Below are positions 1,515 through 15,783 of a stretch of DNA of 52,457 nucleotides, in pieces (the first letter of the stretch is position 1; every line of letters starts with the position of its first letter). A program made the position numbers and the translations under genes. Location: NCBI GenBank assembly GCA_017504435.1, contig JAFVRD010000014.1, positions 1-52,457 on the forward strand. The letters run 5' to 3'. The DNA comes from Lentisphaeria bacterium. Its GTDB lineage: Bacteria > Verrucomicrobiota > Lentisphaeria > Victivallales > Victivallaceae. The notes beneath the pieces are model-generated. The model saw only the letters and a program-made list of their open reading frames with translations, made no database searches and was not told where the DNA came from.

Positions 1515-1543
1515 ATTATACATCCATTATGCTTGAATTTCAA
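1515..1543 (-). promoter_or_regulatory. Promoter of the GH109-like gene
   Basis: On the minus strand, -35 TTGAAA (1538-1543) and -10 TATAAT (1515-1520) are separated by exactly 17 bases. The predicted start is about 45 bases before the ATG at 1464. The -35 box overlaps the stop codon of trmO, so the downstream gene can be transcribed independently. Confidence 0.7.
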
Positions 1544-2358
1544 TTATTATCCGGATCAATTCGATTTTTTGTACCGAAAACAGCAGTAAAACGGCGGTGA
1601 AAATCTTTATCTTTATAACGGTCATCTGCTCCGGGCAGCAATTCGTCGGCCCGATAATTGGAACGTATTCCCAAGAGCTTCACCTGCCGCCGCAAATCAT
1701 CACAGCTGTAAATCACCTGCCACGTCCGGCAACCCAAAGCATAATTCCCATCCGATACAGCAGTAATACGCTTGCGCTGCTTATCCAGTGGAGCATGACT
1801 GAGCTGAATGCGGCAGAAACTCTCCAAATCCAATCCGGATAACTCTTTTATCAATGCCGCCTGCTTCCGAAATCCGGGTTCAGCAATAACCTCCCAGACC
1901 TCTGCCGCTACTTCGCGCCAACCGGTCGCGGCATCCGGAAATGCATCGGCATCCGGAATATACGGTTTTATATCCAGTACCGGAGTTCCGTCCAGCATAT
2001 CTGCTCCGGAAAAAAGTATCCTGTTACGCTCCACGCTATCCAATTTTACACAACTCAATCCCAATGGATTCACCCGGTACGGAGAACGGGTGGCAAACAG
2101 ACTCCGGCAAGCTCCCCCGGCTGGAAACGGCGGCCGGACTTTGGGTTTCCAGGGATGCTCAAGATTCAAATGAAAACAGAATATTATCCATATCCGGTCA
2201 AATCCGGCAAGATCAGCAATCGCATCACCGCCATATTCAGGCAGTAATTCGACAACTCCGTCAATGCCGTTGAAAACCCCTTGACGCGGAGCCTCAAAAC
2301 GGTATTTGCCGCAGCTGCGGACAAAACCGATGGGATGAAATTCAAAACTCGAATACAT
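1540..2358 (-). CDS. trmO: tRNA (N6-threonylcarbamoyladenosine37-N6)-methyltransferase TrmO (TsaA/YaeB family)
   Basis: A 272-residue protein that matches the TsaA/YaeB fold. The N-terminus FHPIGFVRS is followed by ELLPEY, LAGFDRIWIIFCFH, a long basic insert and FATRSPYRVNPLGLS, then LDGTPVLDIKPYIPDAD. TrmO transfers a methyl group from SAM to t6A37 of tRNA-Thr. The C-terminal extension (about residues 165-272), with the LSHAPLD and GNYALGCRTW segments, is typical of the longer family members. An upstream ATG at 2382 lies inside the loop of the terminator of the secretin operon, so the ATG at 2358 is the better start. No strong Shine-Dalgarno sequence is visible in front of it. Confidence 0.85.
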   Translation of the reverse strand: MYSSFEFHPIGFVRSCGKYRFEAPRQGVFNGIDGVVELLPEYGGDAIADLAGFDRIWIIFCFHLNLEHPWKPKVRPPFPAGGACRSLFATRSPYRVNPLGLSCVKLDSVERNRILFSGADMLDGTPVLDIKPYIPDADAFPDAATGWREVAAEVWEVIAEPGFRKQAALIKELSGLDLESFCRIQLSHAPLDKQRKRITAVSDGNYALGCRTWQVIYSCDDLRRQVKLLGIRSNYRADELLPGADDRYKDKDFHRRFTAVFGTKNRIDPDNN

Positions 2359-2360
2359 AA

Positions 2361-2392
2361 GAAAATAAAACCCCGGCCTCATGACCGGGGTT
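2361..2392 (-). terminator. Intrinsic terminator of the tpiA-secretin operon
   Basis: On the minus strand, AACCCCGG and CCGGGGTT form an 8 bp stem with an 8-base loop. It is followed by the tail TTTTATTTTC and lies 12 bases after the stop codon of the downstream secretin. The stem-loop sits directly before the trmO start. Confidence 0.85.
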
Positions 2393-2403: not shown

Positions 2404-4656
2404 TTAATAACTGCGGGAGAAATCCGGCAATCCGTTATTGTCCACTTTGGGGTTGATCGATGAACCATCCGGTTTGATCATCCGGCAAGTCACAAAAATC
2501 AACAGATGGCTTTTCTGGGATTTCACATATTTACTCTGGAAAAACCGGCCGATAAACGGAATATCTCCGAGAATCGGAATTTTATCATGGATGCTCTGGA
2601 TATTATCCATCGCCATACCGCCGACAAGAACAGTATCACCATCTTTTACAGCAACCACAGTTTTGAGAGTGCGCTCAGAGAATATCGGTTTTTTGATGTA
2701 TTCTCCGTCCTCACCATCTTCTCCGGTACGGGCATCTACGGTCAGCCAGTCCACAAACTGTTTGATCGGAACATTGATCTCCATATCAATCAAACCGGTT
2801 TTTTTGTCAGCTTTGGGAGTGATCTCAAATTTGATACCGGTTTCCTGCTCATCTTCCAGAGAGGGCTGCGGAGATACACTGACAATAAAATCATCGGTAC
2901 TCTCGGTATCCGCAGTTTCCCAATCTTCCGGATAGTAATGTTTTTCACTCATATTGATTTTGGCAGTGGTGTTGGAGCGCGTGGTCACCCGGGGTGAATA
3001 CAGCACATCACTGGAATCTGCCCAATCCAGAGCATACACTCCGGCAGTGAATGCATTTTTGCTGTCTGCCCAGACAAACTGATATGTCAAATCATCCGCA
3101 CGAGCAGTACCGCTTTGAGTCGTACCGCTGTAACGCTCATCTTCAGTAGAGTAGTGACGCAGCAACTCATTACTGCTCACCCCCATGATGGTGCGATTGG
3201 GATTACCCATGTCATCCGCACGATGAGAAAGACGCTGGTAATTCCAGTTGAAACCGAGTTCATCCAAATCATCCTGAGAAACTTCAATAAATTTAAACAT
3301 GACCTGAACCATCGGTTCATTATCCACACGTTTCTCCAACGCGATACCGATCTTTTTCAAATTCTCCGGAGTATTCCTGACAATGACCAGATTGCGGGCT
3401 TTGAGCAATTCCACACTGGCACCTTTACCGAAAGAAATACCTTCCGCTTCCAGCCACTCTTTAAGATTATCCTTGTCATCGTTATCCGTAAGTTCGTAGG
3501 GGAAATAACGAACTTCCATATCCTCCAATTCAGTGCCGGCAGGAGCAATCATGACGGCATTGTCATCGACTTTGAATGTCAATATTTTGCTGGTCTGCAA
3601 ATCGTTGAGCAAATCATATGCGGTGATCTGTTTCTTTGCCAGAATGATTTTGAGTTCTTTTTCATTCTCATCCGCACTGTCCAAACCGCGCACCACGAAA
3701 TTGACACCAAGACGGGAAGGATCATTCGTACGGCAGGCACTGCGAAGTTCTTCAATCAAAGTGCTGAAAGTCAAATCACCCTCATCAAACTCAAACCGGG
3801 GAATCCGGATGCTTTTGAGTTTCACCATCAGCGGACTTTCCACCGTTTTAGCAACCGGAGTATTCAACTGATTCTCCGGTTCACCGACCGGCGCATCGGC
3901 CACGATGGGGATTGCAGCATCCCATTCAACTTTGGCAGTCATCCGCTTGGCTGAGGCATGGGCACGGATAGCAGCATCTTTGCGAATGCGGTTATTGATA
4001 CCCTCCAGGTTCTGGATAGCAACCGCATTGAAAGGATCAATCAGCAAAACTTCCTCAAATTTCCGGCGTGCCTGAGTCAATTCATTACTTCCGGCCAGCG
4101 CACGTCCCTGTTCCAGGAGCAACTGGATTTTGTATTCCTGATCGGCCAGTCCCGGAGCAAGTTTCCCGATGGAAGCGTTTTCACGGGAAAGTGCAGCTTT
4201 GCGGCGGATCTCATAATATTCAATCTTTTTGCCGAGTTCTTCAGCTCTTTCCGGGCAAAACTTCTGTGCCTCCCGGCACATATTGATCGCGGCCTCAAAA
4301 TCCTTGCTGCCGGCAACTTTGTCAGCGTTTTCTATCGCTTTTCCAGCTTTGCTGTAATAGCACTCTTTGATCTGCTGCTGGCAAAATTCAATGCGTTTTT
4401 TGAATACAGTACCGCTTTTATAATTTTCAAGCATTCCAATAATCTGCCGGTAAATCTTGACTGCACCGTCAAAATCATTATCAAGCATTTTTTGATTGGC
4501 ACTCCTGACCAGCCGGTTACTCTCAAACTCCAACTGCTGTCTGCCGGCATTGACCCGCGAGACGAGCTGATCGGCAGAACCGGTCTGTACCTGAGCGGCA
4601 GCCACAACCGCACCCAGAACAATGCCGGGTGCCAGAAACATCATTTTCTTATTCAT
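2404..4656 (-). CDS. Secretin-like outer-membrane channel protein (Amuc_1098/PilQ-GspD type), downstream copy
   Basis: A 750-residue protein with an N-terminal signal peptide (MNKKMMFLAPGIVLGAVVAAA). Tetratricopeptide-like helices at about 50-230 are followed by secretin N-domains (about 280-440) and a C-terminal secretin domain from about 440. The secretin signature is clear near the C-terminus: GDTVLVGG at about 673, then IPILGDIPFIGRFF and LLIFVTCRM. Secretins form the outer-membrane gate of type IV pili and type II secretion. TPR-secretin chimeras are typical of PVC bacteria such as Akkermansia. The gene is the last of the operon and starts 23 bases after the paralogous secretin. The start ATG at 4656 has GGAGG 9 bases upstream. 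Confidence 0.85.
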   Translation of the reverse strand: MNKKMMFLAPGIVLGAVVAAAQVQTGSADQLVSRVNAGRQQLEFESNRLVRSANQKMLDNDFDGAVKIYRQIIGMLENYKSGTVFKKRIEFCQQQIKECYYSKAGKAIENADKVAGSKDFEAAINMCREAQKFCPERAEELGKKIEYYEIRRKAALSRENASIGKLAPGLADQEYKIQLLLEQGRALAGSNELTQARRKFEEVLLIDPFNAVAIQNLEGINNRIRKDAAIRAHASAKRMTAKVEWDAAIPIVADAPVGEPENQLNTPVAKTVESPLMVKLKSIRIPRFEFDEGDLTFSTLIEELRSACRTNDPSRLGVNFVVRGLDSADENEKELKIILAKKQITAYDLLNDLQTSKILTFKVDDNAVMIAPAGTELEDMEVRYFPYELTDNDDKDNLKEWLEAEGISFGKGASVELLKARNLVIVRNTPENLKKIGIALEKRVDNEPMVQVMFKFIEVSQDDLDELGFNWNYQRLSHRADDMGNPNRTIMGVSSNELLRHYSTEDERYSGTTQSGTARADDLTYQFVWADSKNAFTAGVYALDWADSSDVLYSPRVTTRSNTTAKINMSEKHYYPEDWETADTESTDDFIVSVSPQPSLEDEQETGIKFEITPKADKKTGLIDMEINVPIKQFVDWLTVDARTGEDGEDGEYIKKPIFSERTLKTVVAVKDGDTVLVGGMAMDNIQSIHDKIPILGDIPFIGRFFQSKYVKSQKSHLLIFVTCRMIKPDGSSINPKVDNNGLPDFSRSY

Positions 4657-4679
4657 CTATTTCATCCTCCGGCATAAAA

Positions 4680-7355
4680 TTAACGGCCAATTTCCGGAAT
4701 TCCGAAACTCGACTCAGTACGCCGCACCGGAACTCCTGAATTATCCATAAGTTTTGCAGTAACAAAAATCAACGTATTGTTACGGAACGATTGTTCCGAG
4801 TGAGACTGGAAGAGTCTTCCGATAAACGGGATATCCGCCAAAATCGGAATTTTGTCCAATCGTGACGCCGCTCTGCTGTCGGAAAGTCCGCCCAATACCA
4901 GTGTTTCACCGTGGAACACATCCACCTGCACATTCAGCTCCCGGGTCTGGATGACCGGACGCCAAATCTTATAAATTTTACTTTGAGCTGTATCTTCCTG
5001 ATTTGACTCACGGTCAATAATCATCAGTTTGATCTCATAGGTCTCATCTTCACGCTGACCTCCGGATACCGATTTGGGATTGATGCTCATACGGATGGTC
5101 TTGTTATCCGGCTGCACCGTCGGAGTCACCGTAAAAGTTGTTCCCATCAATTCAGATTCACCGAATTCCGGAACCGGTTCAGTGATCGTCAGGTTCCAAC
5201 CGTTGTTGTCACCGCCTTCCTCGACTTCAATTTCCAGCTCATCCCATGATTCCGGGAAATAGTATCTTTTGCCCATGATGACGGTCGCGGTTTCACCGCT
5301 GTTGACCAGCACTTTCGGAGCAGAAATAATCTCAGTACGGTCACTGCGGTCAAGGGCATTGATCGTCAGTGAGAGGTTGAATTCTACCGAAGAGCCAAAC
5401 GGCTTGGTCGAACCGAAAATATCCGGAAAGAGGTTCAAACCCGAAATCAAATGCGGAGTCGTACCATCGGTACTGAGCATATTGCCAAGCATGGACATGA
5501 CCTTTGCCTCGCCACTGGCAGTATAATCGGTGTTGGCCCCCTGACCGGCAGCCCACAAAGAATTTTCTTTTATTTTACCGATGGCTCCCAATGACCAGTT
5601 GAAGCCGAGTTCTTCCAGGTCTTCATCGGTCAACTCAATACTTTTGACTTCGACCTGAACCATCGGTTTGTTGACGTTAAGTTCCTGAAGAATATCGGTC
5701 ATACGACGCCGGTTTTCTTCACTGTTTTTCATATAAATGGTATTTCCGCGCAAAGCGATACTGCTGCCTTCCGGGAATGTCACACCGAAAAGTTCGAAGA
5801 ATTTTTTCAGTGCTTCAGCAGAAACTTTCACACCGGATGCTTTACTGTTGCTTCCCTCTGCAACGCCGCCTTCATCACTGCTTTCTGCACCCAACGCATC
5901 GCTGCTGTTTGAAGCAGCTGCATCATTGCCGGAATCATAGTTCAAAATCAAACGCGGCACTGATGCGGCAACATAGAATGAAGCACTCTGCATGCCAGTT
6001 ACAAATGCCAGAGAAACCTTGCCGTCAGAAACCGAATATTTCAATCCGGTCAGATAGCAGATGTAATTAAGCACTTCGCGCAATGTAACGTTATTCAACT
6101 CCAAAGTAACCAGAATATCGTTACTGCTCCGGACTTTAGGTTTTTCCCGGTTTTCATTCGCTTCAGGAGCTTCCATATCAACAGCCACTGCCGCAGGATC
6201 AACTTTCTCAGGCTCCTTGACTTCAGTGTCTTGCGGTGCCGATGCTTCAAACTCAATGATCACACCTTTCTTATCCACCGGATCGTGCCGGGAATTGTTA
6301 CGATGCAGCCACGCGATCACCGCAGAGATCTCAGTTTTGGCAAAAGAAACTTTCGGGAAAACGATTTTGTCCAATTTAGCCTGAGTTCCGTGATCATCAG
6401 CACCTTTTACAATCGTATCGACCTGCTCTTCAGCGGAACTGTCCTGCGGGAATGTCGGTTCCACCCACTGCCATGCTTCATATGCAAGCATACCGGCGGC
6501 ATCAGCATGGCGGCGTTTATAGCCGCTTACATAAAATTTCTTGTAAAGTTCGTGAGCAAGCTGCGCAGCATCAGCATTAAACGCATTAATGGTAAAGACC
6601 TGTTCAACTTTTTTCAGAGCTTCTTCATATTGTCCGTTTGCCATCAACGTACGTCCGGCAGCCAGCAATGCTTTGATCTGTTCCTGTTTCTGTGCCAATT
6701 TCGGATCAATGGAGTAAGGATTGATCTTCCGGCGGTATTCATTCTGTTTCTGCAAGGTACGTGCCTTGTCAACGGTAACATCGATCCGGCCAGAAACATC
6801 ATTCCCGGCAGACTTTGCATCCTGGGCAATATCAACTGTTGATGATGAAACCCGCGCTCCGGCCCGGTCACCCAGAGAGACATACTGTTGATTATCAACT
6901 GCATTCAAATGAGTCCTGGATGCAGAGATGATCGTATCTGCCTCAGCAGCCATATCCGAACAAAGTTTTTTTGCTTTGTTCGCCAAGTCCACAGCTTTTT
7001 CATAATTTCCGGCGGCATAAGCATTTTGAGCTTCGGTGATTTTCACTTTACCGTAATCCTCACGCCACTGCTGCCACAATGCGGAAAATTCACGGAGACG
7101 CTCTCTGGCGATCCAGGAATCTACACTGGAAACATGCATAGTCAACTCACCGATGACACCAGTTATCATACTGATTGCCTGCTCGTAGTTGCCTTTGGCA
7201 GCCTCGGATTTTGCTTTTTCAATCATCTTGTCCTGATCAGCAAACATTTTCCGATCCACCTGCTCGCGCTCTTTAGCGACAGTCTGAGGCGCAGGAGGTG
7301 CAGCAGACACTCCGACCACAGCCGCCAGACACAGCATCAAGGTTGTTTTTTTCAT
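4680..7355 (-). CDS. Secretin-like outer-membrane channel protein (Amuc_1098/PilQ-GspD type), upstream copy
   Basis: An 891-residue paralogue of the next gene with the same architecture. A signal peptide (MKKTTLMLCLAAVVGVSAA) is followed by TPR-like repeats in the first third, the secretin N-domains, and a C-terminal secretin core with GETLVLGG (about 816), IPILADIPFIGRLF and NTLIFVTAKL. A low-complexity Ser/Glu/Gly stretch, NSSDALGAESSDEGG, lies near residues 480-500 between N-domains. It differs clearly from the second copy in the central region, so the pair is not a recent duplication. It could make a separate or a mixed ring. The Shine-Dalgarno sequence is AAGGA before the ATG at 7355. 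Confidence 0.85.
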   Translation of the reverse strand: MKKTTLMLCLAAVVGVSAAPPAPQTVAKEREQVDRKMFADQDKMIEKAKSEAAKGNYEQAISMITGVIGELTMHVSSVDSWIARERLREFSALWQQWREDYGKVKITEAQNAYAAGNYEKAVDLANKAKKLCSDMAAEADTIISASRTHLNAVDNQQYVSLGDRAGARVSSSTVDIAQDAKSAGNDVSGRIDVTVDKARTLQKQNEYRRKINPYSIDPKLAQKQEQIKALLAAGRTLMANGQYEEALKKVEQVFTINAFNADAAQLAHELYKKFYVSGYKRRHADAAGMLAYEAWQWVEPTFPQDSSAEEQVDTIVKGADDHGTQAKLDKIVFPKVSFAKTEISAVIAWLHRNNSRHDPVDKKGVIIEFEASAPQDTEVKEPEKVDPAAVAVDMEAPEANENREKPKVRSSNDILVTLELNNVTLREVLNYICYLTGLKYSVSDGKVSLAFVTGMQSASFYVAASVPRLILNYDSGNDAAASNSSDALGAESSDEGGVAEGSNSKASGVKVSAEALKKFFELFGVTFPEGSSIALRGNTIYMKNSEENRRRMTDILQELNVNKPMVQVEVKSIELTDEDLEELGFNWSLGAIGKIKENSLWAAGQGANTDYTASGEAKVMSMLGNMLSTDGTTPHLISGLNLFPDIFGSTKPFGSSVEFNLSLTINALDRSDRTEIISAPKVLVNSGETATVIMGKRYYFPESWDELEIEVEEGGDNNGWNLTITEPVPEFGESELMGTTFTVTPTVQPDNKTIRMSINPKSVSGGQREDETYEIKLMIIDRESNQEDTAQSKIYKIWRPVIQTRELNVQVDVFHGETLVLGGLSDSRAASRLDKIPILADIPFIGRLFQSHSEQSFRNNTLIFVTAKLMDNSGVPVRRTESSFGIPEIGR

Positions 7356-7432
7356 TCGTTGGATTTCCTTCTGAAATATTTTATGAATTTTTTGAATTCT
7401 TTACCCGCGATATAACTGCCTGTCTCCGGATT

Positions 7433-8704
7433 TTATTCCACATCCGGCATCATATTTTTATCTTTTTTTTCGATCGGACTATCTGCGACAGGGACTTTGC
7501 CATCCGCAGTAATTTCGATCAAAGGCCGTTCGCCGTTTTCATTAGCTTTGACTCTCATGTCAACGATCCGGACAACCTTTTTATCAGCATCCACTTCTTT
7601 GAGCTGATAGCGTCCGGCACTGCTATCCCGGCGCAAATTGGTGCTGTCCGGATAACCGACATAAAGCAGATCTCCGATACGCATGACATGTAACGAATCC
7701 TCTTTTTTACCGGAATCTTCCAACACCGGACGTTTATCCGATGAATACGCAGGCTGACCGATGGTCATGATCAGCTTATCCGGAGTTTTTCCGGATTCCG
7801 GATCGGTAACTTCGGACAAAAACACCCGGCTTTTATCAATCTGACGATTCTTCTTGTTTTCATCCAATACATTTTCGACATTGCGTTCCACATCATCCAC
7901 CCGGTATTCAGTTTTTTCAATGTCCACAGTATCTCCGATACGCGCATATTGACTGCGGGTACGTCCTTTCAGACGGCGATGCGGCGAATTGAACTGCATG
8001 TCCCAATTCTTCTTATTTTTATCCTCGCCATTAGTGATGGCCATGAATTTGACCGGCAACTCAATTTGAGCGATATCTTTAAGGCGCAAACGCCACCAAA
8101 ACGGCGGATGACTGCTTTTATTACCCGGATCAGTGCCGTTGGCGATTTCAAAGCGGTTGGAGAAACCATCTCCGTCATTGTCAAACAACGCATCATCCGG
8201 ATTATTCGGATCCAAATTATATTTTCTTTCATCATCGTTGGAGATACCATCTCCATCCAAATCATTTTCGGTCTTGACACCAGCCCGCGCTACGGCACGT
8301 TCAGGAGGCACAGGCAGATGCGTTCTGCAGAAAGAACATTTCCCTTTGGGATTCAATGCCGATGAGAATTCCGTCAACGGAATAAGAGCGATTTTACTCT
8401 GATCTTTTTCCCGGCAATACGGACATTCTGCGATTTTGAATACATGGATCAAGTCTGAATAATTGACCGATTGTTCCCGGCTGACACTGCTTTCCCATAT
8501 AAGTTTGGTTTTATCCAACAGTACTCCCGGAGTATCCAACGCCGCCATTTTGGTATAATTTTTGCCTCTGGGCAAACGTAACTCAGTCTTGTCAAGCTCC
8601 CGGGACTGGGCAATAACATCCAGCACCAGGAACATCAAAACAATAAACAGCACAAACAATCCGAGCAGGATCACTTTTTCATAATGACGTTTCAAAAAAT
8701 CCAT
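7433..8704 (-). CDS. Membrane-anchored protein with two CxxC pairs and calcium-loop repeats (Amuc_1099-position)
   Basis: A 423-residue protein with one transmembrane helix near the N-terminus (about residues 10-32), so the rest should be periplasmic. It has two Cys pairs, CPYC (94-97) and CSFC (123-126), arranged like a zinc ribbon. They are followed by acidic loops DLDGDGISNDDE and DNDGDGFSNRFE (about 148-186), which resemble thrombospondin type-3 calcium-binding repeats. Its place between the secretin and the Amuc_1100-like gene corresponds to Amuc_1099 in Akkermansia. That comparison is from memory of the gene order, and the function is not established. GGGAGAAG precedes the ATG at 8704. 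Confidence 0.6.
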   Translation of the reverse strand: MDFLKRHYEKVILLGLFVLFIVLMFLVLDVIAQSRELDKTELRLPRGKNYTKMAALDTPGVLLDKTKLIWESSVSREQSVNYSDLIHVFKIAECPYCREKDQSKIALIPLTEFSSALNPKGKCSFCRTHLPVPPERAVARAGVKTENDLDGDGISNDDERKYNLDPNNPDDALFDNDGDGFSNRFEIANGTDPGNKSSHPPFWWRLRLKDIAQIELPVKFMAITNGEDKNKKNWDMQFNSPHRRLKGRTRSQYARIGDTVDIEKTEYRVDDVERNVENVLDENKKNRQIDKSRVFLSEVTDPESGKTPDKLIMTIGQPAYSSDKRPVLEDSGKKEDSLHVMRIGDLLYVGYPDSTNLRRDSSAGRYQLKEVDADKKVVRIVDMRVKANENGERPLIEITADGKVPVADSPIEKKDKNMMPDVE

Positions 8705-8727
8705 AATTAAACTTCTCCCACTGATCC

Positions 8728-10278
8728 TTACTGATTTTGATTGGGCGCCAAAACAACATAATCAACATCCAAAAAGACCCGGCACTCTGTATTCGGCTCA
8801 ACGTTGCCGATCAGCGGCAAACCGTAATTTCGGCGTTCATGTACCGGCAAATGAGCATCGGCCTCACCATGCTGTACGGCATCATCGTTCTGCGTAATTT
8901 CCGGAGTTTGTTCAACAGCCTGCCGGCGGGAACGACGGCTGCGACGGCGGACCGGTTCACGACGGCGAACTGATTCATAACTTTCAGGTTGTTTCATGAC
9001 GGCAGAATCATCGATCTGTCCCATTATTCTGGCAGGACTCTGGTCATTGGCATACAAACATACGGAACGCACGATATAGGTGCGGTCTTCTTTATATGCC
9101 TGATCCAACTCCTGCAAAACTTTCCGTACACCATCCATGCTGGCGTAAAACTCCAACGTATAATGGTAAATCAAAAATTTTCCGCTATCGCTGCGCACAA
9201 AAGAATTCGCAAAATTAAAACCTCCGCGTTCACTGTCATCAGTTGAATCAGACACCCGCGGCACGATCCGGCTCAATTTCCAAATAGCACCGGTTTGTAC
9301 TTCGGTATTATCAGCTCCTTTTGCAGCTCCGGAAGCAACTGATGCAGCCTGCACCGCACCGATCCGCTTGAAAATATCTCCTATAATATCCCAATGAATC
9401 AGCGAAATCTGATAATCTTCCGCATTCAGACCAGATTCACGGTCGCCATATCTATCAGAACTTTTTCCTCCGAAAAACAAAGCTTCTTCATCAAATTTCA
9501 AATTTTTATCCAACGCATTTTTACGGATCGTTTCAATGATCGAATCAATATTCTGAGCCTGACGTTTCGGGTCATAGGAAACCCGCCGCGTCATTCCCAA
9601 AGCATACAGCAGCAAAGCCTCCTGATTGTGTTCACCGATGGTTTCAGATGTCAAAGTCTTTGCTTTGGCAACAAACGCATTCATTGCATTTTCAAAATTA
9701 CCTTCCGGGAAATAAAGATACAACGTGCGCTTGAAGTTGTTGAGAGTCGTAATATCATTGCGTTTACGATCTTCATCATACTTGTTTTCGCAATATTTAT
9801 CAAACTCAGCGTTAAAAAATTCAACAAATTCCTGCTGGGTCAACCTGCGGATCTTAAGCGGAACCTTGCGGGTTTTATCCCCTTCAGTGATCTCTTCGCC
9901 GGTACCGGGAACCTTGTAAGCCTCGATTTGAGATTCACTCAAACGGCGGCTGACCGGCGGCTGCAATACCTTAAAAAATTCATCCAATGCTGCCTGCAAC
10001 GGATTCCGGAACTGTTTCTGCAGACCGTCACCGGCTTTAACGGCAATTTCAATATCAGCTTTGATAAGCGATTCGTTGCCGCTGCCGGGACTGACACTGC
10101 TGCTGCGAACCAACTGTTCACCATCTTTCAACGCTTTGTTGCTTTTATCCTGATATTCACGCAGCTCAACAATTTGAATGATCACAAAAACCAGGAGAAC
10201 CAGTGATACCGCACCGGCGGCAAAAATCACCACGAACAACGGGAGGTTTTTTTTGATAATACTACTGCTCACGATCAT
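8728..10278 (-). CDS. Single-span membrane protein of the pilus-like locus (Amuc_1100-position)
   Basis: A 516-residue protein with an N-terminal transmembrane helix (about 13-36), then a long coiled-coil and periplasmic domain and a Pro/Arg-rich segment (about 425-455). Topology and gene position (just after the PilM-like gene and before the CxxC protein) match Amuc_1100, the Akkermansia pilus-associated protein, and resemble PilO-type inner-membrane proteins. At 516 residues it is longer than Amuc_1100 (about 317). In front of the ATG at 10278 the GGAGG is only 2 bases away. The GTG at 10272 would have an ideal 8-base spacing and may be the true start. Confidence 0.6.
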   Translation of the reverse strand: MIVSSSIIKKNLPLFVVIFAAGAVSLVLLVFVIIQIVELREYQDKSNKALKDGEQLVRSSSVSPGSGNESLIKADIEIAVKAGDGLQKQFRNPLQAALDEFFKVLQPPVSRRLSESQIEAYKVPGTGEEITEGDKTRKVPLKIRRLTQQEFVEFFNAEFDKYCENKYDEDRKRNDITTLNNFKRTLYLYFPEGNFENAMNAFVAKAKTLTSETIGEHNQEALLLYALGMTRRVSYDPKRQAQNIDSIIETIRKNALDKNLKFDEEALFFGGKSSDRYGDRESGLNAEDYQISLIHWDIIGDIFKRIGAVQAASVASGAAKGADNTEVQTGAIWKLSRIVPRVSDSTDDSERGGFNFANSFVRSDSGKFLIYHYTLEFYASMDGVRKVLQELDQAYKEDRTYIVRSVCLYANDQSPARIMGQIDDSAVMKQPESYESVRRREPVRRRSRRSRRQAVEQTPEITQNDDAVQHGEADAHLPVHERRNYGLPLIGNVEPNTECRVFLDVDYVVLAPNQNQ

Positions 10279-10286
10279 GTCCTCCG

Positions 10287-12056
10287 TTATTTATCGATTG
10301 CTTCTTTCAAAGTCAATTCAACCTCAAAATAGGTAAGATTGACCCGGTCAGAAACTTCATTACGATTAATATGCATCGACTCAAAACAGGTTGTTTCAAG
10401 ATTTCTTTTCTTGAAATTTTCATCGAAACGGTCTACTTCTGTGGAATCTCCGAGAACATATCCCGCCAAAGTGATTTTGGAAACCTGCCGCAATCTATTA
10501 ATACTGTTCACAGTGTGTTCTTTAATCCGCCTGGTGTTGCCACCTTCAATATTCTCGTCGCTGTTTTCAGCGTTGACAGTTGGTTCAAGTTTCACCAGCC
10601 ACATCCGGTCAGGAAGCATCTGCTGCAACTCAGAAAGCATGGCAGTGTATTTGTTACGTCCGGCAAGAAGCCGCTGTACTTCTTCATAGCGTCCGATCTC
10701 ATTATTGCGTTGAGAGAGCAGACGGTTGATTTTATTTACTTCCTGTTGGGCACTCTTCAAGTCGCGCTGGTATTTTTCGGAACGGACTTTTTCGTTCTCA
10801 AGAGATTTGCCCATACCGATCAAACTGATAAGCAAACAGCAGACCAATGCCACCGCCGAAGCGTAAAAATACGGTTTGCGGGCATTGAGTTCAAACTGTT
10901 TACGTATGGAGCGCGGGATCAGCATGATATCCACCGGCAATGTACCGATATTACGCAATGATGCACCGATGAGAGTTTGAGACATTGATGCCACCATCTG
11001 CAAGGCATTGCGATCGACATCAGGTGCAATGTTGATCAAACCGAATGTATTGAGATACTCTACCGGCAGACGCAATTTTTCCTGGAAAAAGTCGGTGGTG
11101 TACTGCATAGTACTGCCGCCACCGGCAAGCAAGACACGTACCGGCGCATTACCGCCATGCTGAGCACGCCACACGCTTATCGAACGGCTGATCTCGCCAT
11201 GCAAACGGGTCATCACGTTACGGGAGATTTTGGAAATTGTTGCTGTCAATTCTGAATCCGGTTCATCATACGCGCCGCCCAATGCGACAAAACCGTGACG
11301 GCGTTTGAATTCCTCGGCCTCAACTTCAGAAACTCCGAACTCTCTTGCGATCTGCATCGTGACGCTATCCCCGCCGATAGGAATATTACGCATAAAAATG
11401 CGGCGATGATCAGCAATCATCAAACTGCTGCTGCGGGTTCCGATATCCAGAATCAAAACACTCTCATCTTCACGGATCTGCGAAACCACTGCGGCGTTGA
11501 AAAGAGCCAATGGTGCCAACTCAACTGAAGCGATGACCTTGCCGGATCTCTCGATAGCATCCGTATAACAGACCACGTCATCACTTTTCATAGCGACAAA
11601 AAGTGCTTCAAACTCCTCGTTGACGACCGGGATGCTCTCCGTAGAGCCATCCTCGTTTTCTACCGGACGCATCTCTTCCCAAGTATGATGCAGCAGCTGG
11701 TACCCCCATTCGACTTCATCAATCGAATATGGTACCGCCTGAGCCGCTTCATACTCAATCAACCGGGAAACTGCAGCGCTGTTTCCTGCAACAGGCGGCA
11801 GTTTGCACAACCGCTGGAAAGAGTTGCTCCCGGAAAGCAGCAACCGTACTGATGATGCTGTAAAACCACCCTCCTCCAACATATCCAGATAGTTGCGTTC
11901 AAAACATTCACTGTCGCTTTCCCCGTCGAGCTTCTCGACTTTACGGAAAAGGAAACCGTTCAGTTGAATACCTCCGCCATTGGGAAAGACAAACTCCGCC
12001 ATTTTCAGGCTGTTGCTGCCAATGTCAACTGCAAGAATTTTGTTTTCTTTTGCCAT
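10287..12056 (-). CDS. pilM: PilM-like actin-fold ATPase fused to a PilN-like membrane domain
   Basis: A 589-residue protein. Residues 1-385 are a PilM/FtsA-like actin-fold ATPase, with VDIGSNSLKMAEF at 10, the PilM-typical LIEYEAAQAVPYSIDEVEWG at about 99, LILDIGTRSSS at about 201 and VLLAGGGSTM at about 308. A transmembrane helix follows at 395-415, then a coiled coil (418-470) and a globular segment with LPDRMWLVKLEP, which resembles PilN. In most bacteria PilM is cytoplasmic and binds the N-terminus of a separate PilN. Here both are one chain, as expected for the Amuc_1101 position. It starts at the ATG at 12056 with a weak Shine-Dalgarno sequence and lies 8 bases before the Amuc_1100-like gene. 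Confidence 0.8.
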   Translation of the reverse strand: MAKENKILAVDIGSNSLKMAEFVFPNGGGIQLNGFLFRKVEKLDGESDSECFERNYLDMLEEGGFTASSVRLLLSGSNSFQRLCKLPPVAGNSAAVSRLIEYEAAQAVPYSIDEVEWGYQLLHHTWEEMRPVENEDGSTESIPVVNEEFEALFVAMKSDDVVCYTDAIERSGKVIASVELAPLALFNAAVVSQIREDESVLILDIGTRSSSLMIADHRRIFMRNIPIGGDSVTMQIAREFGVSEVEAEEFKRRHGFVALGGAYDEPDSELTATISKISRNVMTRLHGEISRSISVWRAQHGGNAPVRVLLAGGGSTMQYTTDFFQEKLRLPVEYLNTFGLINIAPDVDRNALQMVASMSQTLIGASLRNIGTLPVDIMLIPRSIRKQFELNARKPYFYASAVALVCCLLISLIGMGKSLENEKVRSEKYQRDLKSAQQEVNKINRLLSQRNNEIGRYEEVQRLLAGRNKYTAMLSELQQMLPDRMWLVKLEPTVNAENSDENIEGGNTRRIKEHTVNSINRLRQVSKITLAGYVLGDSTEVDRFDENFKKRNLETTCFESMHINRNEVSDRVNLTYFEVELTLKEAIDK

Positions 12057-12128
12057 AAAATTGTTCCAAATGTTTTCGCAATATCAAAAATATCAATAGC
12101 AGGAAATGAGATTTTACTCAATCCTGCA

Positions 12129-12857
12129 TTACTCCAGGGTTATATTTTTCTCCAAATCAAAGTTATCCGGTGCAAACACCATCCATGGCGATCGCGCCCG
12201 GGATACAACTCCGCCGGAAACTTTTATACTCTTTGCCGCGTTTCTGTCAAAGTTCCGCATCTGCACTGCCGGTGAATTTCCGGAAACTCCGTAAAATCCT
12301 TTGGCAAGCGACTTACCGGCAGCTGACAACTCTGCAACTACTTCGAAATTCCGTTCGCCAAGTTTGGGAAATTTTATCGGAGCAAAGTAGCGATCGATCA
12401 TCTTCGCCGGAACAAACATCAACGCCACATGCTTTTCTCCGTCACAGCGAACCGACCAGAATACGGTCTTTCCGGAAAAAAGCACCTTTTCCCGGTTTTT
12501 AAGTTGATAACCGGTTTCCATCAAAACCTTCACGTCCAACTGAACATCATCTGCCCAGGCATAAAAAAGGTTTTTTTTGCGCAGAGAATTATTTGAATAA
12601 CTTTTTTTGCTGTTGCTCAAATCATACTCTGATATCCGCTGCCGCTCCGGGGTATATTCGACCCGGATCATCAACCACTTGCTGCTTGATGAGCTTTTAG
12701 CCGAGAACACTTTGTGTACCCGGCTCTCAAATTCAGGAACATTGACAAACTCAATACCTACAGAAACATCTTTGACTTTGATTTCTTTTTCGGCAGCATT
12801 GCAGGTAAAAAACACCCCTGTTACCGCTGTAATCATCAAAAATATTTTCTTCAGCAT
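12129..12857 (-). CDS. Secreted protein at Amuc_1102 position (pilus-like locus)
   Basis: A 242-residue protein with a signal peptide (MLKKIFLMITAVTGVFFTCNA) and a predicted beta-rich body. There are no catalytic motifs. In Akkermansia the equivalent position after PilM is occupied by Amuc_1102, reported to have an immunoglobulin-like fold related to archaeal pilins. Size and position agree, but the homology here is inferred from context. AGGAGCG stands 8 bases before the ATG at 12857. It is the third gene of the tpiA operon and lies 26 bases after secG. Confidence 0.55.
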   Translation of the reverse strand: MLKKIFLMITAVTGVFFTCNAAEKEIKVKDVSVGIEFVNVPEFESRVHKVFSAKSSSSSKWLMIRVEYTPERQRISEYDLSNSKKSYSNNSLRKKNLFYAWADDVQLDVKVLMETGYQLKNREKVLFSGKTVFWSVRCDGEKHVALMFVPAKMIDRYFAPIKFPKLGERNFEVVAELSAAGKSLAKGFYGVSGNSPAVQMRNFDRNAAKSIKVSGGVVSRARSPWMVFAPDNFDLEKNITLE

Positions 12858-12883: not shown

Positions 12884-13213
12884 TCACTTACCCGCCGGTG
12901 TTTCTGCCGGAACTTCCGTTTGAGCCGGCGCTTTTGCACCGAGCAACTTATCAACGCCACTGTTACTGCTGTCACCCAGACCGCGTCCGATAAATGCCGC
13001 CAGAACCAAAGCAATAACAAAGAATATGGTCGTAACGACCACAGTTGTTTTGGTCAGATGGCTTCCTGCCTTGCCGCCGAACACGGATTCACCGATGCCG
13101 CCGAATGCGGCACCCATGCCGCCGGATTTGGACGGCTGAATCAGGATCAGCGCGATCAGCAGCACTGATACGATGAAAATCATCGCATACAGAAGAATGG
13201 TCATAAATTCCAT
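12884..13213 (-). CDS. secG: Protein translocase subunit SecG
   Basis: A 109-residue protein with the SecG pattern: a first membrane helix (about 5-25), the conserved LIQPSKSGGMGAAFGG loop with ESVFGGKAG, a second helix (about 52-75) and a short hydrophilic Ala/Pro/Glu-rich tail. SecG is the third subunit of the SecYEG channel. A longer reading would start at a TTG at 13219. The ATG at 13213 is preferred because GAGGT lies 6 bases in front of it. The order tpiA-secG is common in bacteria, and here the pair heads the pilus-like operon. Confidence 0.93.
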   Translation of the reverse strand: MEFMTILLYAMIFIVSVLLIALILIQPSKSGGMGAAFGGIGESVFGGKAGSHLTKTTVVVTTIFFVIALVLAAFIGRGLGDSSNSGVDKLLGAKAPAQTEVPAETPAGK

Positions 13214-13256
13214 TATCAACCTCGTATTTCCGGAAAATCTCTCCGGAAGTTATTAG

Positions 13257-14030
13257 TTATTTACCGAGAGCTTCGCAAATCAGTTTGGCAAATTCATCAG
13301 CTTTCAATGCGGCACCGCCGATCAGACCGCCGTCGATATCTTTCTGCGCGACCAATTCACGGGCGTTGGCAGCTTTCATGCTGCCGCCGTACTGGATGCG
13401 GACTTTCTCAGCGACTTCAGTACCGAACATGGCGGCAAGTTCTTTGCGGATATGGGCGTGTGCAGCTTCAGCGATTTCCGGGGTAGCGGTTTTGCCGGTA
13501 CCGATCGCCCAGACCGGTTCATAAGCGACCACGATTTTTTCCATTTCAGCACCGCTGATGCCATCGAATCCGCCGCGGATCTGAGTGCTGAGTACGGCTT
13601 CAGTTTTGCCGCTTTCGCGTTCATCAAGCAATTCACCGACACAAACGATCGGGATCAGATCATATTTCAACGCCGCTTTCAGACGGGCATTGACGGTGGC
13701 ATCGGTCTCGCCGAAATACTGACGCCGTTCGCTGTGACCGATAATAACATATTCAACACCGGCAGTTTTCAGCATGTCACCGGAGATTTCACCGGTAAAA
13801 GCACCATTGTCAGCCCAGTGGATATTCTGAGCACCGACTTTGATATTGCTGTTTTTGGCAGCTTCCACAACGGCACCGATGGTGGTGAACGGCGGACAGA
13901 CTACCACATCTGCTTCACAGGAGCAGCTGCAATCGGCAAAAATCTTTTTCAAATCCTCCACGAGAGCGACGCCCTCGCAAGCATTTTTGTTCATTTTCCA
14001 GTTACCGGCGATGATTACTTTGCGGTCCAT
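13257..14030 (-). CDS. tpiA: Triosephosphate isomerase
   Basis: A 257-residue glycolytic enzyme that interconverts dihydroxyacetone phosphate and glyceraldehyde 3-phosphate. All catalytic elements are visible: GNWKMNK near residue 9 (active-site Lys), IIGHSERR (catalytic His), AYEPVWAIGTGK (catalytic Glu and the flexible loop), and IQYGGSMK with GGLIGGAAL near the C-terminus (phosphate binding). It is the first gene of the operon, with a strong promoter at 14106-14133 and GAGGA before the ATG at 14030. Confidence 0.97.
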   Translation of the reverse strand: MDRKVIIAGNWKMNKNACEGVALVEDLKKIFADCSCSCEADVVVCPPFTTIGAVVEAAKNSNIKVGAQNIHWADNGAFTGEISGDMLKTAGVEYVIIGHSERRQYFGETDATVNARLKAALKYDLIPIVCVGELLDERESGKTEAVLSTQIRGGFDGISGAEMEKIVVAYEPVWAIGTGKTATPEIAEAAHAHIRKELAAMFGTEVAEKVRIQYGGSMKAANARELVAQKDIDGGLIGGAALKADEFAKLICEALGK

Positions 14031-14105: not shown

Positions 14106-14133
14106 AATATAGCATAACAATGCCATTTGTCAA
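14106..14133 (-). promoter_or_regulatory. Promoter of the tpiA-secG-pilus operon
   Basis: On the minus strand a perfect -35 TTGACA (14128-14133) is followed by 16 bases and -10 TATATT (14106-14111). This gives a leader of about 70 AT-rich bases before tpiA. No other strong promoter is obvious in the 11.6 kb of genes that follow. Confidence 0.75.
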
Positions 14134-14191: not shown

Positions 14192-14599
14192 CTATTTACC
14201 AAGTGTCACGGCCACCCCCTCTGCCCGCATACTCCGCATCCAGATTATCCACAATCCCAGCATGCCGCTGGATTTTTCAGAAATTTTCACATCTTCCACA
14301 TGATCGGCTTCCAATTTATCCAGTTTGCAATCCAGCATCCGCCGCATGTGCGGCCGGGACAGCAGATGTTTACCGATCTCATAATCATGCCGGTTCGGAC
14401 GGGTCGGATAGCCATTCCACAGCGGAATAAAGTAAAAAAGGTACATGCCTTTGTTTTCCGCAACCAGATTCCATTTGACGGCTTTACCGCTTGCGCTGAC
14501 CTGTCCGGGCAGTGCCGGTGTCCATTTCAGAGTCGAAGTATGAGAACAGCCTACTGCCCCAAGCAGTATTGGCAGCAGCAGCAACATCCATTTTTTCAT
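14192..14599 (-). CDS. Small putative lipoprotein, function unknown
   Basis: A 135-residue protein. The N-terminus MKKWMLLLLPILLGAVGC is a lipoprotein-type signal with Cys18, although Ala at -3 is not the canonical lipobox residue. A hydrophobic patch occurs near residues 52-62 and another at about 112-120. I recognise no family. It is translationally coupled to the RsmE-lipoprotein gene: its ATG overlaps that stop codon (ATGA), and the end of the upstream gene provides AAAAGGAG as ribosome binding site. It is the last gene of the long minus-strand operon. Confidence 0.65.
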   Translation of the reverse strand: MKKWMLLLLPILLGAVGCSHTSTLKWTPALPGQVSASGKAVKWNLVAENKGMYLFYFIPLWNGYPTRPNRHDYEIGKHLLSRPHMRRMLDCKLDKLEADHVEDVKISEKSSGMLGLWIIWMRSMRAEGVAVTLGK

Positions 14600-15783
14600 T
14601 TTTTTCTCCTTTTAAGTCTCTTTTGTTTTTCAGCATTAAGTTCAGAATTCATACGAATCAGCATCATTTGCTGTTCGATCATTTTCCGTTCAACCTTTTC
14701 TGACCGTCGTTTCATCGCCGCGATTTGTTCAAGCAATGCCGCATTTTCACTTTTCAGAGCCGCGATATCCGCATATTTTTCTACTGCCCGTTTCTCCAGC
14801 ATCGCACACAATGCTTTTACTGCCTGATGTTCCGGAGCATCAGGCGGAGTATACTGCAAATACATACGGTAACAGTACAATGCCTCCAGCGGATCATCGA
14901 GATGTTCATCACAAAGCTGTGCCAGAGCCAGATATGCCTCCGGAGTTTCCGGATTCAAAGCCACCGCCTGCCGGAAATACCGTCGTGCATGGTCATAATC
15001 TCCGCTGTCCCGTAATTTTGCGCCTTTGATCATCAGAGGATTTTTATCGATCCCGGCTTTTTCACAACCGCAGAAGAATAACGCCGCAGCCGCACATACG
15101 ACCATTCCAAGCATCCGCAAGGCAGTCAAACCGCACACCGCAGCCGTTTCCAGACGCAATATATATGGAGCAAAATTAAACGCTTCAGCTCCGCTATCTT
15201 CCATCAGTGTGATCTCTTCCGGAGCAAATCCTCCCTCCGGCCCGATCAGTAAAGCGCGCTCCGGCTTACGGCTGCCGGGAACTTCTCCTCCCGGCACCAC
15301 TGCTCCGTAATAAACGGCGATATTCTCATCCTGCAGACGTTTCAATGCCGGGGCAAGCCTCTCTTCCGGATACAAGCGGGGCATAAACGGATTGCCGGAC
15401 TGTTTGCATGCCTCCCGCAGCAGCAGATCCCAACGTTCTTTCGGTCCACCCTCCGCCACTGAGCGGATACAATTCAACGGGCGGATACTCCATGCCCCCA
15501 ATTCAGCGGCCTGTTTAAGCATCTGATCCAATTTCTGTTTGCGGGGCAACGCACAGCACAAATGCAGTTTCACCTCCGGTTCCGGATGGACGGTCACGGT
15601 CTCCACCCGGATGAGTTTGCCCGGCTCCACAATTCCCGCCGCGACAGTGCCTCTGCCGTCAAGTAATTCGACCCGGTCTCCCGGAGCCGCCCGGAACACC
15701 TTGAAAAGATGTTCCTTTTCACGCGTTTCGATCTCCGCGATCCCCCCTGCCGCAGGAATATTATCACAAAAAACCCGGTGCAT
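14596..15783 (-). CDS. rsmE: RsmE 16S rRNA m3U1498 methyltransferase fused in frame to a TPR/coiled-coil lipoprotein
   Basis: The 395-residue frame has two parts. Residues 1-225 are RsmE: a PUA-like start (MHRVFCDN, HLFKVFRAAPGDRVELLDG), then the SPOUT knot with LIGPEGGF at about 179-186 and ILRLETAAVCGLTALR at about 208-223, which is where RsmE normally ends. Without a stop codon it continues into LGMVVCAAAALFFCGC (225-240), which looks exactly like a lipoprotein signal and lipobox, then TPR repeats (about 250-315) and a coiled coil to a basic tail. A methyltransferase should be cytoplasmic and a lipoprotein exported. Internal starts at ATG 15114 or 15105 would give a separate lipoprotein of about 170 residues. 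I infer two products from one frame; a frameshift in the sequence is the alternative. Confidence 0.8.
   Translation of the reverse strand: MHRVFCDNIPAAGGIAEIETREKEHLFKVFRAAPGDRVELLDGRGTVAAGIVEPGKLIRVETVTVHPEPEVKLHLCCALPRKQKLDQMLKQAAELGAWSIRPLNCIRSVAEGGPKERWDLLLREACKQSGNPFMPRLYPEERLAPALKRLQDENIAVYYGAVVPGGEVPGSRKPERALLIGPEGGFAPEEITLMEDSGAEAFNFAPYILRLETAAVCGLTALRMLGMVVCAAAALFFCGCEKAGIDKNPLMIKGAKLRDSGDYDHARRYFRQAVALNPETPEAYLALAQLCDEHLDDPLEALYCYRMYLQYTPPDAPEHQAVKALCAMLEKRAVEKYADIAALKSENAALLEQIAAMKRRSEKVERKMIEQQMMLIRMNSELNAEKQKRLKRRKK

Follow-up and report, generated by a model that had tools for sequence, protein, structure and literature searches.

The closest described relative of the locus reported here is the Amuc_1098-1102 gene cluster of Akkermansia muciniphila, in which Amuc_1099-1102 are known as MUL2 and Amuc_1098 is PilQ. 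Synteny of MUL2 has been reported for the Akkermansiaceae and the Verrucomicrobiales (PMC13174399), and PilQ homologues have been reported as far as Lentisphaera araneosa (PMC4960237). Two other systems bear on the reading of the locus, the type IVa pilus genes pilMNOPQ of Myxococcus xanthus, Pseudomonas and Thermus, and the type II secretion system (T2SS) platform GspL-M-C with its secretin GspD. GspL is itself a fusion of PilM-like and PilN-like parts.

The window, the whole stretch of 52,457 nucleotides that was analysed, comes from a fragmented metagenome-assembled genome, consisting of 61 contigs, of a Lentisphaeria bacterium that lives in the gut and belongs to the Victivallis family. 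Six envelope genes fill the interval 2404-12857, and the putative operon start lies ~1.2 kb further upstream, at tpiA. All the genes, from tpiA through the second secretin, are on the minus strand with intergenic gaps of 8-77 nt. Very probably the locus encodes a divergent type IV pilus alignment complex with a duplicated PilQ, in a probable operon headed by tpiA. The homologies, the folds, the gene order, the duplication and the conservation of the signals were computed here. Two neighbouring genes lie outside the locus. A TrmO-type tRNA methyltransferase gene (1540-2382, minus strand) comes after the terminator. Upstream, a single ORF at 14596-15783 (minus strand) couples an RsmE-type rRNA methyltransferase (residues 68-222) to a hydrophobic, lipobox-like stretch, MVVCAAAALFFCGC, and to TPR repeats, all in frame; by tblastn, at least 20 relatives have these parts joined in the same way within one frame.

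The order 1102, PilM (1101), 1100, 1099, secretin (1098) is contiguous and on one strand in the window as it is in Akkermansia. The first of these genes (12129-12857) encodes an exported-looking, Amuc_1102-like (MUL2A) protein of 242 aa. It is followed by a 589 aa PilM-like protein related to Amuc_1101/MUL2B (10287-12056; Amuc_1101_fam E 1.2e-111), a 516 aa Amuc_1100-like protein (8728-10278), and a 423 aa Amuc_1099-like protein (7433-8704; Amuc_1099_fam 6.6e-13, TSP3_bac 4.9e-10). The last two genes encode secretins, secretin A or PilQ-A of 891 aa (4680-7355; Secretin E 3.3e-30, Amuc_1098_fam 2.4e-75) and secretin B or PilQ-B of 750 aa (2404-4656; Secretin E 7e-33, Amuc_1098_fam 1.9e-74). In both, the Secretin domain scores above its cut-off and the best-scoring NCBIfam entry is the pilus family Amuc_1098.

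The homology to Amuc_1098-1102, which the original prediction had proposed, was borne out by these family matches and by profiles built from Lentisphaeria only. For the 516 and 242 aa proteins the profiles consisted of the window and other Lentisphaeria rows, with every Akkermansia sequence left out. Profile A1, of the 516 aa family, matches the Amuc_1100 crystal chains 6lad/6kny with E values of 4e-10 to 8e-10 (best 4.3e-10). Profile A2, of the 242 aa family, matches the Amuc_1102 chain 7dsz (E 2.1e-14) and reaches 1e-18 to 1e-22 against whole Akkermansia genomes. In whole Akkermansia genomes both profiles locate the correct places. The Akkermansia locus used (L083) belongs to A. muciniphila or to a very close relative of it, since its proteins are identical at every aligned residue to the solved Amuc_1100 and Amuc_1102. 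As single sequences the 516 and 242 aa proteins had no match in PDB, Pfam or NCBIfam; only profiles worked for these two, so the missing single-sequence match is not counted against homology. Within the families, Amuc_1100_fam is matched by 73/78 members of the 1100 family and Amuc_1099_fam by 72/73 members of the family of the 423 aa protein, whose own best stretch, 153-277, lies mostly outside the TSP3 repeats. The window proteins do not reach the Amuc equivalog cut-offs of NCBIfam: the secretins score 251 and 254 against 750 for 1098, the PilM-like protein 374.5 against 650 for 1101, and the 423 aa protein 48.9 against 50 for 1099, while the 516 aa protein is not matched by the Amuc_1100 equivalog. 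A lack of structural similarity of the 423-, 516- and 242-residue proteins to their Akkermansia counterparts would have spoken against the prediction; all three were checked and show a relationship, to Amuc_1099, Amuc_1100 and Amuc_1102 respectively. The relationship of the window locus to Amuc_1098-1102 has thus been tested directly.

The same arrangement is found throughout the phylum. A search with the Amuc_1101 family gave matches in 188 of 195 genomes, the weakest of which, near 1e-5, are perhaps FtsA or other relatives. Gene order was read from all six-frame ORFs in ~20 kb around the best PilM match in 80 genomes of GTDB Verrucomicrobiota. PilM-1100-1099-secretin was found in 73/73 testable loci, those with sufficient sequence downstream; they comprise 28/28 from Victivallales, 8/8 from other Lentisphaeria and 37/37 from elsewhere in the phylum. 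As the loci were picked by their PilM match, the counts show how well the order is conserved where the cluster occurs and are no census of the cluster itself. The 1102 gene was found in 24/30 Victivallales, 9/10 other Lentisphaeria and 36/39 other loci. Six Victivallales genomes (G006, G028, G135, G138, G037 and G049) do not have it at the locus, nor a copy elsewhere in the genome at E up to 0.01, and keep the rest of the cluster; its absence from some locus-bearing genomes makes 1102 an accessory component. The idea of an Akkermansia-like island, standing alone or gained by horizontal transfer, was rejected, the locus being present in every order of the phylum sampled and the secretin tree grouping by taxon. 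Occurrence outside Akkermansia, which had been put forward as a distinguishing feature of this locus, is not special, since the order is phylum-wide and both the L. araneosa PilQ homologue (PMC4960237) and the Verrucomicrobiales synteny (PMC13174399) were already published. A phylum-wide order that includes the Lentisphaeria exceeds, as far as we found, what the literature describes.

The individual proteins resemble parts of a pilus machine. First, profile A4, which represents the PilM-like protein, has two matches to the M. xanthus pilus machine (3jc8): its positions 1-353 match PilM with 1.3e-55, and its positions 359-491 match PilN with 8.8e-6. These matches follow one another along one profile, and the protein is therefore best read, from its sequence, as a PilM-PilN fusion. 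In the 589 aa protein residues ~1-370 are PilM-like (PilM_2 E 2.7e-21, above cut-off; TIGR pilM 1.1e-29), followed by a hydrophobic segment near 394 and then the PilN-like part. The untruncated PilM-like copies examined are all ~550-700 aa long. Support for the PilN part is modest: besides the profile match, Pfam PilN is weak, matching 5/25 members of the PilM-like family at up to 0.1 (best 0.0037).

Second, the 516 aa protein has a PilO/GspM fold. Its AF2 model (mean pLDDT 78) gave a VIA Z of 16.1 to Amuc_1100 (6lad) and of 9.6 to Pseudomonas PilO (2rjz), the latter with an rmsd of 2.0 over 92 residues; PulM/PulL domains followed at 6.4-6.6. Pfam scans of the 1100 family returned mostly scattered weak matches, among which only PilO and GspM were recurrent or sensible by position: one member matched Pfam PilO at 9.5e-6, and some matched GspM models. 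The 516 aa window protein itself did not match the PilO or GspM models. It is ~13% identical to Akkermansia Amuc_1100 in the alignment. With an identity this low, an inner-membrane PilO fold and no sign of surface exposure here, the framing of the cluster around an immunomodulatory surface protein was not carried over to the window.

Third, the 423 aa protein, which like the 516 aa protein begins with a membrane-spanning helix, has two CxxC pairs, TSP3-type calcium-binding repeats and two beta domains after its N-terminal helix. Residues 216-317 of its model (pLDDT 85) align with PilP of 3jc8 at Z 8.8, the next unrelated row being at 4.9; the match is confined to one domain, with 73 residues aligned, and to one architectural model. 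Plain Foldseek with the same model returned no match with E < 0.04. Taken with the secretins, the locus would read pilM(N)-O-P-Q-Q, which is the order typical of type IV pilus alignment complexes.

In the proposed mechanism the PilM-PilN fusion, the 1100-like PilO, the 1099-like PilP and PilQ would form an envelope-spanning alignment complex, with the accessory, exported 1102-like protein encoded ahead of them. Docking to the motor platform would fall to the cytoplasmic PilM part; the PilN-like part with PilO and PilP would build a periplasmic cage, and the secretin would serve as the outer-membrane exit. We infer that a pilus is assembled by this complex and that it uses both secretins. The assembly and retraction ATPases, PilC and the pilins are encoded at other loci in the genome, which was probed by family searches. 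PilB, a second PilB/GspE-like ATPase and PilC are found side by side on one contig of the window's genome, and two PilT-family ATPases score above the curated cut-off. The 2.26 Mb genome (G000) has 35 N-terminal-methylation pilin-like matches and nine secretin matches, spread over many contigs. It also has a separate T2SS-like cluster, L227 (G000:C26:8000-20000), with a 784 aa GspD, GspE, GspF, pseudopilins and GspK.

The same parts could be read as the L-M-C-D portion of a type II secretion system, in which GspL would correspond to PilM-PilN, GspM to the 516 aa protein, GspC to the 423 aa protein and GspD to the secretins, or as a machine shared between pilus and T2SS. The fused PilM-PilN recalls the architecture of GspL, but the PilM part scores as PilM (the TIGR pilM and PilM_2 matches given above) and no GspL family is among the matches listed. 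PulM/PulL domains do match the 516 aa model (Z ~6.5), as GspM models match some members of its family; the PilO match is nevertheless the higher. For the 423 aa protein PilP, and not GspC, is among the matches listed. The neighbouring ORFs scanned around the T2SS-like cluster L227 included none that was obviously L, M or C, which favours the T2SS reading. The retraction ATPases of the PilT family point to a pilus. The Akkermansia secretin has been named PilQ and linked to pili (PMC4960237, PMC10688800), which also counts against the T2SS reading. We consider a secretion system improbable, and the pilus alignment complex is retained as the preferred reading.

Upstream of the envelope genes on the same strand are secG, encoding a Sec translocase subunit (12884-13219; SecG E 2.9e-17, TIGR00810 above cut-off), and tpiA, encoding triosephosphate isomerase (13257-14030; Pfam TIM E 2.8e-96). 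A promoter-like site, TTGACA-16-TATATT with an extended -10 TG, lies upstream of tpiA at 14106-14133 (minus strand) with 11/12 consensus matches. An intrinsic terminator with a 10-pair stem and a T run is located 3' of the last secretin at 2369-2392 (minus strand). Both signals had been predicted, and both are present and conserved beyond shuffles. The relatives have the promoter in the form TTGA(C/A)A, 16-17 bases, TG-TATATT, at -51 to -136; a match of at least 10/12 was found in 13/33 tpiA upstream regions (window and named relatives) against 5% of shuffles. In 35/58 loci the last secretin has a strong terminator behind it, against 0.6% of shuffles; strong terminators occur at just 6/374 internal gene junctions. 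Given the conserved promoter, the conserved end terminator and the few internal terminators, the simplest reading is one operon, and eight genes are probably transcribed together from the promoter before tpiA to the terminator after the second secretin.

Upstream sequence was sufficient at 71 named Lentisphaeria loci, of which 53 have tpiA and 62 have secG directly upstream. Outside the Victivallales neither gene is upstream in any of 47 testable loci. Of 30 tpiA loci drawn from across the phylum, among them a few from Victivallales, 20 have secG after tpiA. The tpiA-secG pair is older than its link to the pilus locus, and this old pair would have become the head of the transcription unit in the Victivallales. 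One possibility, which we infer, is that a constitutive promoter is the reason for housekeeping genes at the locus. The occurrence of tpiA-secG upstream in the Victivallales, between a promoter and a terminator that are both conserved together with the pilus genes, is new as far as the literature consulted shows.

Alternatively, tpiA and secG are mere neighbours and the pilus genes use a promoter of their own, upstream of the 242 aa gene or of PilM. A weak promoter-like site, matching 9/12, does lie before PilM at 12087-12060, where the gap between 1102 and PilM is 72 nt, and tpiA is missing from 18/71 and secG from 9/71 of the named loci. Against this, the window has gaps of 26-38 nt and those of relatives are mostly short, the conserved promoter is the one at tpiA, and strong terminators are rare at the internal junctions. 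Separate transcription is rather unlikely on this evidence. The joining of a glycolytic and Sec pair to an envelope machine, as originally predicted, holds in that a joint unit is present and co-transcription appears likely from the layout; a functional link between glycolysis, Sec and pilus does not follow, the pair also standing alone elsewhere.

The doubled secretin is the second feature of the Victivallales loci. In a tree of 106 secretins the tandem copies form two clades, A with the first copies (support 100) and B with the second (support 99), and A and B together split from all other secretins with a support of 97. Secretins A and B of the window belong to the respective clades. Both are kept in tandem in 52/52 named Victivallales loci with room downstream, and within one genome they are ~28% identical. 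The simplest history suggested by these sequences is a single PilQ duplication in the stem lineage of the Victivallales, after which both copies would have been retained side by side. Other tandem secretins occur in families f9, f32 and f42 outside the Victivallales (loci L076, L089 and L096, with three copies in L076); the separate tandem copies elsewhere in the tree mean that secretin doubling arose more than once. A limited literature search found no description of the tandem PilQ pair. The duplication, with clades A and B in tandem throughout the Victivallales, is new as far as the literature consulted shows.

The second secretin might be no more than a redundant paralogue of the first, kept for dosage or as a backup and having no separate role. 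In the secretin domain A and B share their conserved residues, and no position there is 90% conserved yet different between the copies. The N-terminal part, however, has positions conserved in B only (Y69, Y100, I124, P135 and I145), the low identity is accompanied by a separate clade for each copy that tracks the families, and both copies were retained in all 52 named loci with room downstream. Such long co-retention argues for distinct roles, and redundancy is considered unlikely. What the roles might be can be stated tentatively: the two paralogues could form one obligate mixed or stacked heteromeric channel, or they could pass two alternative filaments through one inner-membrane platform. 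A heteromeric A/B secretin, if true, would break with the homomeric ring make-up of secretins. With a single duplication in their stem and the two copies still in tandem, the Victivallales offer a clean natural case for asking if a secretin may be heteromeric or specialised, and Victivallis vadensis, a cultured relative, carries the same layout.

These results place the much-studied probiotic locus of Akkermansia within a phylum-wide family. By fold and position Amuc_1100 is suggested to be PilO, an inner-membrane anchored alignment protein and not a pilus-specific adhesin, which makes the claims of its surface exposure testable. Two results deserve to be followed up, the interpretation of the Akkermansia locus as pilMNOPQ and the ancient pair of PilQ copies; the novelty of the window locus as an outlier was overstated.

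Compared with Akkermansia muciniphila Amuc_1098-1102, the window has the same five families in identical order. Its 1100-like protein is longer (516 versus 317 aa), it has two secretins where Akkermansia has one, and tpiA-secG lie upstream. The resemblance to the T2SS platform GspL-M-C with GspD consists of the fused PilM-PilN and the PulM/PulL-like fold of the 516 aa model, but the window proteins score as PilM, PilO and, probably, PilP, and no GspL family is among the matches listed for them. Relative to type IVa pilMNOPQ, equivalents of M, N, O and Q and a probable equivalent of P are present in the window in the same canonical order. The window locus differs by the fusion of M with N, by a second PilQ, by the exported 1102 protein encoded before PilM, and by the CxxC pairs and TSP3 calcium repeats of the probable PilP. 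The window proteins are too distant for the standard PilO and PilP sequence models, and keep the gene order of the type IVa alignment complex.
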